A stretch of DNA of 44,670 nt from positions 1-44,670 of the forward strand of contig JAFSNG010000008.1 in NCBI GenBank assembly GCA_017447515.1. The letters run 5' to 3'. Positions 39,656 to 44,331 of the stretch are shown one piece after another. Source of the DNA: Prevotella sp. (GTDB taxonomy: Bacteria; Bacteroidota; Bacteroidia; Bacteroidales; Bacteroidaceae). Numbering within the stretch: position 1 is the stretch's first letter; every line of letters begins with the position of its first letter. Both the position numbers and the translations under genes were made by a program. Below the pieces are notes generated by a model, which saw only the letters and a program-made list of their open reading frames with translations, did no database searches and was not told where the DNA came from.

Positions 39656-41410
39656 TTACATCGCCAATATGGCTCTCAAATTCGTATCAGTAAACGTGCG
39701 CCAAATCATCAACTTGATAGGCTTATAGTCCTCGAACAGTTGCTTGACGAACTTAATCTCAAACACCAGACGGAAGTCATTCTCGTCTGCCGTTTCCACA
39801 AATTCATGCTTCGTGCCAACACGAGCGACTTCAATCTGATACAGGTCGCGAATACCCTTGCCTTTTGTGTAAGGCATGAAGTAATATAGCTTGTTGAGTT
39901 TCACCGTCGAAGGGAACTTTTTGCCTGTAAAGTATGCTTTTGCACGCTGATGGGTATAGGGTTCGATATACTTGTCAGGCACAAGACTTACCAGAACGTT
40001 CTTCGAGTCATCAAGATCACTATTGTCAATGTTCTTCTTGTGAGCGAATGGGTTGTTAATGATGCTGACATTCTTAGGATATTGCTCGTGCATGTCGAAC
40101 ATATCAAGCTCAAAGAGTTGTGGAGGAAGCATTTCGTGTCCTGCCTTATCAGCTTCTTCATACTGGCTCTCCTCAGGATACTGCGCATCAATCTCATTGA
40201 ACAAACGTATCAGCGAGCGTCCAATGGCAAATGCGAGATTCACAGGTACAGCATTTCCTATTTGTTTATACTGGTCTGACATGTTACCCTCAAACTCCCA
40301 ATAATCTGGGAAGGTCTGAATGCGTGCATACTCGCGAACAGTCAAAGGACGTGTCTCTGTTGGGTGACAGCGTTCCGTTTGTTTCTGAGCAGGTGCGCAG
40401 GTTAATGTCAGCGAAGGTTCGTCCATTGAAAGACGGCGAGCCATTCCTGTTTTACCACCTCCAAGATAGAAACTTCCACCCATATATTCTTTTTGTTCCT
40501 CTACAGGCAGGTCACGCCAATCACCACCCTCTGGAACCATTGCCATCACGCGGGCTTTCTTGGCAGGATAAAGTTGACCTTCAGACTCAGGCACATCTTT
40601 ATCAAATAGTTCACCGCTAAAGAATGCGTCACGTAGCGTCATTACTCGACGATATGGATCAGGCCACCTGAAACGGAAACCTTGTTCATAGATGTCATTT
40701 CGAATAGCAATGAGTATTAATCGTTCGCGTTTCTGTGGGACTTGGTACATAATTGCCTTCAGCACACGAGGCTCAACAAGTGTGTAACCAAGTTCTGCAA
40801 TGGCATTACGGATAATATCAAGTGTCCTTCCGTCTTCATGTGACAACAGACCCTTTACGTTTTCGCCCATGAACACTTTTGGCTGGATTTCACGAACTGC
40901 GCGAGCCAACTCAAAGAACAGGGTACCACGAGTATCGTTGAGACCGCCTTTTTTGCCTGCGTACGAGAAAGCCTGGCAAGGGAAACCACCTGAAAGGAAG
41001 TCCACTTTGCCACGAAGCGGAGTGAAGTCCACCTGATGAATGTCACCCTCCAACACATTCCATTCAGGGTGATTGCGTCTGAGTGTCTGGCAGGCCATAG
41101 CATCCATTTCGTTCAGTAGCACATGACGGAAACCAGCCAAATGCATACCAAGCGCCAAACCTCCAGCACCAGCAAACAGTTCTACAGAAGTAAAGTCGCG
41201 AAGAGGCGCAACATGAAACTCTTCATCCCAATTGGTGTCAAGCATCATTCGTACAGGCTCCACATCAGTAAGTTCCTCCATGTAGAAGCCCTCTTTGCCC
41301 TTTTCGTTCCTATGATAAGGATATACGCCGCTCTCGCCCCACTTCTGCGTTGTAGCAAGTGAGGTTCCCGTAAGGTCGGCTAAGTTCGTTGCAGATAAAA
41401 ATGTTGGCAT
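39656..41410 (-). CDS. DNA (cytosine-5-)-methyltransferase of a type II R-M system
   Basis: A 584-aa C5 methylase. Motifs in order: I SVELFAGAGGLALGMHLAGF (75-94, SAM binding), IV SGGFPCQAFSYAGKKGG with catalytic Cys145, VI FMGENVKGLL, VIII VPQKRERLILIAIR, and IX/X TVREYARIQTFPDYW and IGNAVPVNLAFAIG. The methylase core ends near residue 400. Extra parts are an N-terminal segment of about 65 residues with a MerR-like helix-turn-helix appearance (TNLADLTGTSLATTQKWGES) and a C-terminal domain of about 150 residues (from about 430) that I do not recognise. The start overlaps the restriction gene stop by 1 nt (TAATG). The recognition site cannot be read from the sequence. Confidence 0.93.
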   Translation of the reverse strand: MPTFLSATNLADLTGTSLATTQKWGESGVYPYHRNEKGKEGFYMEELTDVEPVRMMLDTNWDEEFHVAPLRDFTSVELFAGAGGLALGMHLAGFRHVLLNEMDAMACQTLRRNHPEWNVLEGDIHQVDFTPLRGKVDFLSGGFPCQAFSYAGKKGGLNDTRGTLFFELARAVREIQPKVFMGENVKGLLSHEDGRTLDIIRNAIAELGYTLVEPRVLKAIMYQVPQKRERLILIAIRNDIYEQGFRFRWPDPYRRVMTLRDAFFSGELFDKDVPESEGQLYPAKKARVMAMVPEGGDWRDLPVEEQKEYMGGSFYLGGGKTGMARRLSMDEPSLTLTCAPAQKQTERCHPTETRPLTVREYARIQTFPDYWEFEGNMSDQYKQIGNAVPVNLAFAIGRSLIRLFNEIDAQYPEESQYEEADKAGHEMLPPQLFELDMFDMHEQYPKNVSIINNPFAHKKNIDNSDLDDSKNVLVSLVPDKYIEPYTHQRAKAYFTGKKFPSTVKLNKLYYFMPYTKGKGIRDLYQIEVARVGTKHEFVETADENDFRLVFEIKFVKQLFEDYKPIKLMIWRTFTDTNLRAILAM

Positions 41411-42126
41411 TAAAGACCTCCTCTATCTTCGATTTCCTTAGCAATCTCTTTGATTTTGGCTAATATCATATGACTGCCGTCAATGTTATCCTCTTCAACG
41501 ACCTCACCAAAGGCCTTTGCAAGACGGTGATAGAATTGCTTGTCACCTGTCAAATGCTCCCAAAATTCTGCGCCACAGTATACAGGATAATGAGAATTGA
41601 TGATTTTATAATGTCCTGACAAATCATCTTCTTCTCCGTATAAGACACCAACTATCATGTCGTCAATCTGAATAGATAAACGATCAAGACGAGCCTTATT
41701 ATTGAGGTGCTTGAAATGACCTAAGATGGTAGCCACGTCATCTTTATTAATTGTTTGTGGCCCAGCCTTACATTGACAGTATTTCTTCCGTCCGTCAAGA
41801 GCATCCTCAAACTCTATGTCTATACCATCAATACCAGATGCACATCCAGCAACCTCAGCCAGTTGTGAAATAAAAATCTGAATATTTTGGCCAAAACTGG
41901 TATTGATACTTGTACCAAGAATACGAGGATACACTAACGCTTTGGCTAACGACTCTGGTTCTGTGTTTCCACAAAGGAACGCTGCCAGGTAGTTAACCAA
42001 GAAGGGATTAAACTTGAATTTCTTTAATTCCAATGCCTGCAACCCTTTTATGTGGTTGGGTATAATAATCTCACGGAAATAAGTCTTTCCGCTTTCAATT
42101 ATTTGTTTCTTTTGCTTTTCAGTCAT
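41410..42126 (-). CDS. Type II restriction endonuclease, PmeII-like
   Basis: A 238-aa protein. GIDGIDIEFEDAL followed by KKYCQCKAGPQTIN matches the PD-(D/E)xK core of the PmeII family, with Asp103 and a Q-x-K variant (Gln118-Cys-Lys120) in place of E-x-K. Glu105 and the preceding SFGQNIQIFISQLAEVAG helix are also family-like. It lies directly upstream of the cytosine methylase and shares the TAATG stop/start with it, which makes it the cognate nuclease. Specificity is unknown. Producing the nuclease before the methylase means that control of expression matters; a possible antisense RNA promoter lies just upstream. Confidence 0.82.
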   Translation of the reverse strand: MTEKQKKQIIESGKTYFREIIIPNHIKGLQALELKKFKFNPFLVNYLAAFLCGNTEPESLAKALVYPRILGTSINTSFGQNIQIFISQLAEVAGCASGIDGIDIEFEDALDGRKKYCQCKAGPQTINKDDVATILGHFKHLNNKARLDRLSIQIDDMIVGVLYGEEDDLSGHYKIINSHYPVYCGAEFWEHLTGDKQFYHRLAKAFGEVVEEDNIDGSHMILAKIKEIAKEIEDRGGL

Positions 42127-42142
42127 ATTTTTCTCTTTTAAT

Positions 42143-42173
42143 TTTGTTATTTCTAAAAATATATCTATCTTTG
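42143..42173 (+). promoter_or_regulatory. Plus-strand promoter of a probable small RNA
   Basis: TTTG (42143-42146), an exact 19-nt spacer and TATCTTTG (42166-42173) form a full consensus promoter pointing away from the restriction gene and against mrr. The predicted start is near 42180. No plus-strand gene follows. Confidence 0.6.
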
Positions 42174-42179
42174 CATCGA

Positions 42180-42235
42180 TGAATCCCGCTAACCTCTGGC
42201 CGCAAGGTCAAGTTAGTGGGTATTGTTTTATATAG
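42180..42235 (+). ncRNA. Candidate small RNA with GNRA-capped hairpin, antisense to the mrr 3' end
   Basis: Just below the promoter, arms CCCGCTAAC (42185-42193) and GTTAGTGGG (42212-42220) pair, enclosing TGGCC-GCAA-GGTCA, a second stem closed by a GCAA tetraloop. Both stems contain a G-U pair that would be an A-C mismatch on the opposite strand, so the RNA is read rightward. The following TATTGTTTTATAT is U-rich and could end the transcript just inside the mrr stop region (42228). The start and end positions are estimates. Confidence 0.55.
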
Positions 42236-43091
42236 ACTCTTCCTCCAGCGAGTTAAAGAAGTCCTCATCAATCTCATACGACTTGACTTCATTGAGGCCG
42301 ATGCCGTATTCTGCCAACTTATTGATGAGTTCCTCGCCATCCATCAAGTCTATCAAACGCTTTCCTTCGCTCGATGCCTCTTCTTTGGCCTCACGGGTGA
42401 ATGCACCTGTAGTGATAAGTACGCCTTTCTCAATGTTGGTTCCCAGTGAGCCACGGAAATCGCGGATTTGTGGTGCTCCAACTTGGCCTTTATAACGTTT
42501 ACACTGGAAAGCCACGTTAAAGCTGAAGATTCCATTGATACGCAATTTACCAGTTCCATCGATGCCACCGTCACCTGATTTCCTTGTAACCTCAACGTCA
42601 GAGAACCCACATTCACGCAACAGGCGCTGAGCCAGTTTCTCAAATGCATAAGGATTCATGTTGAACAAGATATCTGCCACCTGCTCGCGCCAGCCTTTCT
42701 TCTCTGCGGCAGGAACGTCTTCTGATTCAGGCTTCTCCGTGCCGTGCTTGTCGTTAGTGAACTTCTTGATTTCTTTCGTATCAATCTTGCCAGACTTGAG
42801 CATCTTTGCACCTTTCGATGTCAAAGCCCAAACGCCTTGCTTACTATTCTCTACAGCACCAAAGTTCTTCAAGTAAGTCCTTGCCCACATCAGCCTATAT
42901 TCCACCTCGCTCATAGTGAATGTGTGCATCTCCTCAACTACATCGTCTGGGAGATTCGTGATAGCCAAAACCTTCTTGTATATTTCTTCGTTAGAGCCAG
43001 ATCCTCCAAGCATATCGAGTGCCTTCAGGACTGGTTCAAAGAAATAATCAAAATTTGGACAGAGTTTCTTGCTTGTTTTCTTCTTAGCCAT
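42228..43091 (-). CDS. mrr: Mrr-type restriction endonuclease
   Basis: A 287-aa protein. The N-terminal region (about 10-105) is a winged-helix Mrr_N-like domain (FEPVLKALDMLGGSGSNEEI, later QGVWALTSKGAKML). After an acidic linker (about 112-132) comes the Mrr catalytic domain: AFEKLAQRLLRECGF with its Glu, KSGDGGIDG with Asp178, and FQCKRYKG with Gln196-x-Lys198. Mrr proteins cleave modified DNA, often m5C- or m6A-containing. Next to a cytosine methylase, its target range must avoid the methylase product. It is followed by a hairpin region before the restriction gene, so it may stand as a separate unit. Confidence 0.9.
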   Translation of the reverse strand: MAKKKTSKKLCPNFDYFFEPVLKALDMLGGSGSNEEIYKKVLAITNLPDDVVEEMHTFTMSEVEYRLMWARTYLKNFGAVENSKQGVWALTSKGAKMLKSGKIDTKEIKKFTNDKHGTEKPESEDVPAAEKKGWREQVADILFNMNPYAFEKLAQRLLRECGFSDVEVTRKSGDGGIDGTGKLRINGIFSFNVAFQCKRYKGQVGAPQIRDFRGSLGTNIEKGVLITTGAFTREAKEEASSEGKRLIDLMDGEELINKLAEYGIGLNEVKSYEIDEDFFNSLEEESI

Positions 43092-43208
43092 ATCGCATTA
43101 ATCTATTTTATAATCGTGAGACAGCGTCAAATCACCAGATTCCAAATCAGGAAAATCTCGCGTAAATATCTATCGTCGTTCATAATTAATTCATTTTATT
43201 CTAGCCTG

Positions 43209-43216
43209 CAAATTTA
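43209..43216 (-). promoter_or_regulatory. Candidate -7 box of mrr
   Basis: Minus-strand TAAATTTG, with only a weak -33 (GTTG 23 nt upstream). The leader would be about 110 nt long. In the rest of 43092-43296 I see no gene or stable structure apart from an 18-codon open frame that I do not accept. Confidence 0.35.
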
Positions 43217-43296
43217 CGAATAATTTCTGAGATATTTCACAACATAGCACATTTTTACACATCTTTTAATAAAAGACCACGGCACAAACTTATAAT

Positions 43297-44331
43297 CTAA
43301 AGTTCTGGTGGCAAGAAGAAATTTGTCTTATACTCTAGTGGAACTATATTTGATAGCAACTTTGCGCGCTGCTGTTCTGTAAGTACTGATGATATGAATT
43401 GCTTGATGTCATTTGCACATGGGTCTTGGATGTAAATACGCTCCAGATGTTCCATTTTGGAGAATATCTCACGATCAGTCTCACGATTAAAGAATGGAAA
43501 CGAATAGCCAATCACGACAAGAACTTGCGCGTCAGCTATTTTGTTGTAGAGAACGTCGCTCCGCTTGTCGAACTCCATTTTCTCCCAAGCAAAGATTAGT
43601 TGCAGGCAACCATCGCTGAACGACCTGGTTCTGTTTGCGATACAGTATTGACGAAATATCTTATCAAGAAGGCCTTCGCTTTTGATTGTTAGTAATACAT
43701 CTGCCTCGATGTTGTTCGCCCCATAGTAGTTGCCAGCTCCATTAATTCTAAATACCCTTGCGCTATCAGTTTCTGTCATCGTGTCATTTGGAACACACTC
43801 GTATAAGCGTCCATTGCCATACCCACGATAGGCAATGTCAAGCTGGAGGTCGTAGTTCCATGTCATAATATAGACATTGTCTGGTATCATGGCATTCCTG
43901 TTCAGAATGTTTGCAAAGAATGTGTCGTATCGTTTGTCGAAAGGATGGATGACTTGCTCTATCAGGAAAAACGACGACAGCAAGAGTTTGAGTTTGCCAA
44001 AATCACAGGCTTGATTGCACAGATAGAGTTTCTTGGCGAATGTGTCGATTGTGGCATGTTGGGCAGCTTTGTCTTGAAGCCATATCAGATCATCAATGAA
44101 CATTGATTTCATGGATGCTGCATCCAGCTCTTTGCCGCAAAATGAATATGGGGTGTTGAGACCTGCAATATCGCAGTTCTTCACCCAGTCGACGACAATG
44201 CTAAATTCATTGTCTATCTCGTTGACAACAGGAAGTCCCTCAACAATTCTCTTGGGGGAGTTCTTCGGCTCACCCTCGTTCCTTTTGCCATAACTGGCAC
44301 CTGCACCAAGTAAATATACAATCTTGCTCAT
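43297..44331 (-). CDS. SIR2-like family protein (probable NAD-dependent defence effector)
   Basis: A 344-aa protein with the SIR2-like Rossmann landmarks: IVYLLGAGASYGKR (GAGAS at 9-13), TWNYD (157-161, the TxNYD motif), and VLVVIGYSFPFFNRETDREI near 280. It lacks the zinc-binding Cys set of protein deacetylases, so it is closer to the SIR2-like NAD-cleaving proteins of anti-phage systems. No second effector or sensor domain is visible and there is no partner gene in the same unit. It lies beside Mrr and a restriction-modification system and just before an insertion sequence. The defence role is inferred from context and family. Confidence 0.75.
   Translation of the reverse strand: MSKIVYLLGAGASYGKRNEGEPKNSPKRIVEGLPVVNEIDNEFSIVVDWVKNCDIAGLNTPYSFCGKELDAASMKSMFIDDLIWLQDKAAQHATIDTFAKKLYLCNQACDFGKLKLLLSSFFLIEQVIHPFDKRYDTFFANILNRNAMIPDNVYIMTWNYDLQLDIAYRGYGNGRLYECVPNDTMTETDSARVFRINGAGNYYGANNIEADVLLTIKSEGLLDKIFRQYCIANRTRSFSDGCLQLIFAWEKMEFDKRSDVLYNKIADAQVLVVIGYSFPFFNRETDREIFSKMEHLERIYIQDPCANDIKQFISSVLTEQQRAKLLSNIVPLEYKTNFFLPPEL

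Follow-up and report, generated by a model that had tools for sequence, protein, structure and literature searches.

What does a small structured RNA gene do between two restriction genes that are both read from the opposite strand? The question is raised by a 44,670-nucleotide stretch of a Prevotella sp. contig (JAFSNG010000008.1, hereafter the window), for which the original prediction proposed a hairpin RNA with its own promoter, antisense to the end of mrr and possibly tuning mrr or the adjacent restriction operon. The neighbouring genes run leftward, as it had said: mrr, the EcoO109I-type endonuclease gene and the C5 methyltransferase gene all lie on the minus strand. The features of the locus are as follows (L numbers are our labels for other loci, and abi denotes an Abi_2-like gene).

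39656-41410, minus strand: gene for the C5-cytosine methyltransferase that accompanies the EcoO109I-type enzyme
41410-42126, minus strand: EcoO109I-type restriction endonuclease gene, occupying the abi position of L038, L040, L041 and L042
42127-42165, no strand: stretch holding the junction of the restriction-modification (R-M) operon and the RNA module, from comparison with L042 and L137
42143-42234, plus strand: compact RNA gene comprising promoter, leader, hairpin and U-rich end
42143-42173, plus strand: promoter TTTG-N19-TATCTTTG of the small RNA, an exact match in its -33 and -7 boxes
42166-42234, plus strand: conserved RNA unit (-7 box, leader, hairpin and U-rich end), matched by covariance model R1
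42185-42220, plus strand: two-stem hairpin of 36 nt with a CUC/A internal loop and a GCAA loop, from fold and covariation
42221-42234, plus strand: U-rich tail, a terminator-like RNA end overlapping the last 7 nt of mrr
42228-43091, minus strand: mrr-type restriction endonuclease gene, 3' neighbour of the RNA here and in L042

The feature in the window is a structured, strand-specific RNA gene with a promoter and a tail. The promoter is found exactly where it had been claimed, and we take its TTTG-N19-TATCTTTG form to be of the Bacteroidota type. The window contains eight occurrences of the pattern TTTG-N18-21-TAnnTTTG, whereas shuffles predict 0.42, so such promoters are real here, yet they do not make the place of the small RNA unique. 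After a leader of ~10 nt follows the predicted hairpin with its GCAA loop, CCCGCUAAC-CUC-UGGCC-GCAA-GGUCA-A-GUUAGUGGG, in which each stem has one G-U pair; the hairpin measures 32-37 nt in relatives. For the segment 42143-42300 (158 nt) the folding energy is -37.5 kcal/mol, with z = -2.69 and 2 of 200 shuffles doing as well, and the predicted transcript of 51 nt folds at -21.4 on the plus strand versus -13.6 on the opposite strand. R1 has a single match above noise in the window, with one hairpin per copy and no tandem repeats. Among the relatives, the -7 box is kept in most and a TTTG or TTGG at -33 in many (by eye), and the U-rich tail is present as well. The antisense overlap with the end of mrr exists, but it amounts to only ~7 nt (stop codon at 42228-42230, model end at 42234). 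Judging from its sequence, the gene is presumably transcribed.

Is this RNA conserved as a structure? Letter for letter, the 36-nt hairpin recurs in five further contigs, all Prevotella or Prevotellaceae by title, and a scan of viral contigs did not find it; L038 and L040 are not independent because their flanks are identical. BLAST with 101 bases gave no match among plasmids and, among phages, only five Lak phage records over 34 bases of the promoter part. A DNA similarity search of 151 genomes returned mostly promoter-only matches, and two of the matches, L009 and L016, were the first diverged relatives and supplied the first compensatory changes. Between the window and L042 none of the 69 sites in 42166-42234 differs, which is only suggestive, given that the neighbouring mrr differs by as little as 3.3-4.6%. 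When 399 genomes sampled from the GTDB family were searched with R1, 42 of them, including that of the window, gave 48 places at E <= 0.05, and 28 gave 32 places at E <= 1e-4; since the E-values are per genome, up to ~20 matches at the looser limit, and few at the stricter one, may be due to chance. In a draw of 295 genomes from the class, R1 matched at E <= 0.01 in 14 genomes, namely that of the window and 13 outside the family, where ~3 would be expected by chance.

The covariance-model check in Bacteroidota that had been put forward with the original prediction showed that the pairing is kept by compensatory changes. Across 36 distinct rows, 96.8% of the cells are paired and 12 of the 14 pairs are double-changed, as high a count being reached in 0 of 500 shuffles, although these rows were gathered by R1 and the set therefore leans towards the model, the first relatives having come from plain DNA similarity. 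RNAalifold recovers the identical two stems without an imposed structure. In a hairpin-only set of 16 rows, pairing is 100%, 7 of 13 pairs are double-changed, a number attained in 51 of 500 shuffles, and the covariation score is 0.531 (0 of 500 shuffles). The paired columns of 35 distinct rows (469 cells) hold 52 G-U pairs, 5 A-C combinations and 10 other non-pairs, G-U being present in 31 of the 35 rows and A-C in 4; thus the plus strand, the rightward one favoured by the original prediction, is the right strand. Alignment A3, which underlies these counts, has the second copies of L059, L056 and L061 shifted by one column and contains one spurious row, L046:1934-1982; all these faulty rows were kept in the covariation and RNAalifold counts, and only the spurious one was removed for counting G-U and A-C. 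The internal loop, C-Y-C/A, is conserved among the relatives. Promoter, covariation and wobble strand together speak for a small RNA gene that is strand-specific and has a promoter to itself.

In the relatives, this RNA family is linked to Abi_2-like genes. A gene for an Abi_2-like protein of ~230 aa lies directly left of the RNA promoter in L038, L040, L041 and L042, divergent and ~43 nt from the -7 box (L039 has only 50 nt of sequence on the abi side), and similar genes adjoin many RNA copies from L044 to L072 and in L085. Pfam Abi_2 was above its cut-off in all five Abi proteins tested, the HEPN motif R(N/H/D)xxxH occurs as RNR[IL]AH in 16 of 16 proteins of the relatives, and PADLOC assigns the Abi proteins as PD-T4-5/AbiD-like. 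The sole PDB match of a 16-row Abi profile was 8vz6, which is PbAbiF with its ncRNA from a Prevotellaceae bacterium, at E 0.0021 and over a part without the HEPN motif; one Abi protein searched against the PDB gave no match at E <= 1, and 8vz6 was reached by the 16-row profile alone.

The linkage was counted from both sides. The 16-protein Abi profile gave 49 matches in the same 399 family genomes, 30 of which were examined as loci. An R1 match lies at most 132 nt from abi in 25 of these 30 (26 with L117, where the motif was seen by eye), at E <= 0.009 in 23 and at 0.06-0.08 in L105 and L115; as 12 of the 30 loci (L093-L104) were profile rows, chosen for their RNA, the independent count is 13 of 18, or 14 of 18 with L117. 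The four Abi loci lacking the RNA, L119-L122, rank lowest among the 30 in protein score. Within the 25 linked loci, the RNA is solely 5' of abi and on the opposite strand in 21, solely 3' in three (on the opposite strand in L098, on the same strand in L099 and L100) and on both sides in L104. The hairpin-only model R2 matched 18 of the 30 Abi loci at E <= 0.0024, but only 6 of the 18 independent ones, so that at the other loci promoter and tail contribute much of the R1 match. Counted from the RNA, an Abi match is adjacent to 18 of the 48 places in the family, or to 15 of the 32 at E <= 1e-4; two further places carry abi fragments and three of the rest lie less than 300 nt from a contig end; many copies are thus without a visible partner. 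Of 11 RNA loci examined outside the family, 8 are accompanied by an Abi gene or pieces of one, against 0 of 34 control loci picked by promoter-only similarity. In L095, L094 and L093, and not in L096, an opposite-strand TAnnTTTG box stands ~10-15 nt past the RNA 3' end (by eye), and transcription of abi may there cross the RNA gene in antisense.

The role first proposed for the RNA, tuning mrr or the restriction operon, was not supported: none of the eight EcoO109I-type loci related to that of the window (67-92% identity) carries the RNA, and its recurrent neighbour elsewhere is an Abi_2/AbiF-like HEPN gene. On these two observations we favour a partner RNA of an AbiF-like toxin over a regulator acting on mrr or the R-M operon. 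By analogy with two studied pairs, the window RNA is probably the antitoxin partner of an AbiF-type toxin. In Clostridioides difficile, the RNA hairpin RCd22 is the partner of an Abi_2 HEPN protein, AbiFCd, which it binds directly and thereby neutralises, both in cis and in trans (PMC12373285); PbAbiF is likewise inhibited by its RNA, through bulge nucleotides (PMC12737573). RCd22 has two abiF motifs and is co-transcribed before abiF, and an abiF RNA hairpin measures ~36-37 nt (PMC12373285), whereas our RNA has one hairpin, its own promoter and a mostly divergent layout, with a length in the window that falls within that range.

The original prediction recognised no named RNA family, and none emerged: Rfam had no match at the gathering cut-off in the whole window, and RF03085, the abiF RNA (gathering score 37 bits), had none in the 81 nt surrounding the RNA even at E <= 10, nor in the genome of the window, in L042 (3400-3700) or in L117 (2180-2310). 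Above its cut-off, RF03085 was found in 13 of 31 genomes searched, at places other than those of this RNA. Genome G393 holds seven such sites, some near contig ends. The Bacteroidales sites of RF03085 resemble the window RNA in having a TAnnTTTG box, a short leader, a hairpin of 33-37 nt and a U run, as well as the common strings CCC..CCUCU..UCAA..GGGU (by eye), and an Abi_2-type HEPN gene adjoins them as it adjoins the relatives of the window copy. The two differ in inner stem and loop, and in arrangement: RF03085 lies upstream on the same strand of a partner of ~300 aa (4 of 8 loci with a visible ORF), whereas here the RNA is mostly on the opposite strand of a partner of ~230 aa. A possible homology would rest on layout and short motifs. 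R1 overlaps RF03085 sites in five of eight loci, two of them at E < 0.05, and R2 scores 8.6-10 bits there on both strands alike; the membership that the R1 overlap at G301:C1 had led us to expect was not supported by R2, which does not tell RF03085 sites from noise. We therefore consider the RNA AbiF-like in layout and setting, and not a member of RF03085.

The idea of an RNA antitoxin is common to this RNA and to the type III toxin-antitoxin systems ToxIN, CptIN and TenpIN. In those systems the RNA consists of tandem repeats and the toxin belongs to a family other than Abi_2. The RCd22 paper also gives tandem repeats and an unrelated toxin family for type III systems (PMC12373285); our RNA, in contrast, has no tandem repeats. 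Neither this RNA family nor orphan AbiF RNAs were reported in the open-access literature that we searched, a scope outside which most subscription-journal papers fall.

How might the RNA work? Its own promoter would make an RNA of ~50 nt with a short leader, a two-stem hairpin and a U-rich end. In the usual setting, the hairpin would most likely bind the partner HEPN ribonuclease, probably with the C-Y-C/A internal loop towards the protein, and silence it, as RCd22/AbiFCd (PMC12373285) and PbAbiF (PMC12737573) suggest by analogy. The bound ribonuclease would be kept inactive, the RNA thereby acting as antitoxin. Because the common divergent layout puts the RNA antisense to the abi leader, cis repression of the toxin gene is plausible, and this layout probably also dampens its transcription. 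That the RNA binds the protein and acts as an antitoxin is what we infer from such comparisons.

In the window, the toxin gene itself is missing beside the RNA. Profile searches found no Abi_2 gene there nor elsewhere in its genome; the absence is clear locally, and genome-wide it is weak evidence because the assembly is 61% complete and control genomes matched only below the cut-off. The R-M operon stands at the abi position of the relatives: the order is mrr-RNA-abi in L042 and mrr-RNA-EcoO109I in the window. The stretch 42127-42165 differs by 45-52% from L042, whereas 42166-42234 is identical to it. Of the eight alignments with EcoO109I relatives, seven break off within 42121-42155 and that with L136 at 42009, L137 being alignable up to 42155, and the -33 TTTG thus falls within a stretch resembling the R-M side and the -7 box within the RNA core. 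Which neighbour of the RNA is older, abi or the R-M genes, can be suggested at most by such comparisons. In L059, abi lies between two different RNA copies (1501-1566 and 2370-2436); in L077 (RNAs at 1362-1426 and 1493-1560) and L061 both of these RNAs are kept and 29 nt replace the 766 nt holding abi, for which loss of abi is a simpler reading than gain. Among 20 proteins near orphan copies, several belong to defence or toxin-antitoxin types (AAA_15/AAA_21, type III restriction, DNA methylase, HepT, YhcG, RhuM), and others are ordinary. As no abi was found and the EcoO109I R-M operon occupies its position, we propose that the window RNA is an orphan antitoxin.

Upstream of mrr lies the noncoding stretch 43160-43277, of which L042 (2329-2403) and L041 (1034-1116) carry copies with 93% identity, the one in L041 followed by a different restriction-like gene; the interval from this stretch to the RNA gene seems to be one in which defence genes have been swapped. 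In a wider search the noncoding 43150-43290 was matched, outside its own genome, only over short lengths of 24-51 bases. Farther on, a 344-aa protein encoded on the minus strand at 43297-44331 carries an N-terminal LLGAGAS motif, which we presume to be SIR2-like; Pfam, NCBIfam and PADLOC yielded nothing for this protein at the thresholds applied.

Taken together, we regard it as likely that the small RNA gene in the window is intact and belongs to an RNA-protein pair of the Abi_2/AbiF type whose protein gene is missing here, which would make it an orphan antitoxin, even though only 18 of the 48 places in the family have an Abi match next to them, RF03085 does not match and its sites are not picked out by R2, and the mostly divergent, opposite-strand layout is unlike the same-strand one of characterised AbiF RNAs. 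That the RNA instead tunes mrr or the EcoO109I operon, as a cis-antisense or a trans-acting RNA, appears improbable to us. Its position between mrr and the EcoO109I gene on the opposite strand would suit such a role, as would the divergent site before a start codon, which is the arrangement used with abi; moreover, the minus strand of 42001-43208 has no TAnnTTTG box, so that the EcoO109I gene may be read from before mrr through the antisense of the RNA. However, its absence from the eight EcoO109I relatives, the short overlap with mrr and the quite different genes adjoining its relatives argue against tuning as its function, and an antisense side effect on the restriction operon may exist in this one genome.

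A simple terminator, or an attC-like recombination site at which defence genes are swapped and where pairing would serve only DNA or termination, could explain why the same core is flanked by different genes in the window, L041, L042 and L038; we consider this very unlikely, because a promoter box stands at a fixed distance before the hairpin in most relatives, the wobbles favour one strand and the linkage is to a single protein family. The R boxes of integron attC sites read RYYYAAC and GTTRRRY. An attC site was rejected, as CGCTAAC and GTTAGTG of the window, compared by eye, each depart from this consensus twice. It also seems quite unlikely that the RNA guides or activates the Abi ribonuclease in the manner of the Cas13 lineage: AbiD/F proteins are proposed as ancestors of RNA-guided Cas13 (PMC12165695), but the characterised AbiF RNAs neutralise their protein (PMC12373285, PMC12737573), the transcript is almost entirely hairpin with scant room for a guide, and the RNA occurs without the protein gene.

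As an orphan antitoxin, the window RNA could neutralise AbiF-like toxins arriving on mobile elements, or it could be a recent relic. More tentatively, and with the balance tipping against it, one might envisage a second AbiF-linked family of antitoxin RNAs, widespread in Bacteroidia, outside Rfam, usually antisense to the toxin leader and perhaps of an origin separate from RF03085, of which many toxin-less copies, the one in the window included, are kept as immunity RNAs against AbiF-type toxins of rival mobile elements. A covarying, Abi_2-linked RNA in several families of Bacteroidia, with its own promoter and mostly in opposite orientation, widens the known range of AbiF-type pairs. RNA loci without a toxin are natural experiments, and should orphan copies have kept the ability to neutralise related toxins, they would be RNA-based anti-addiction or counter-defence genes.
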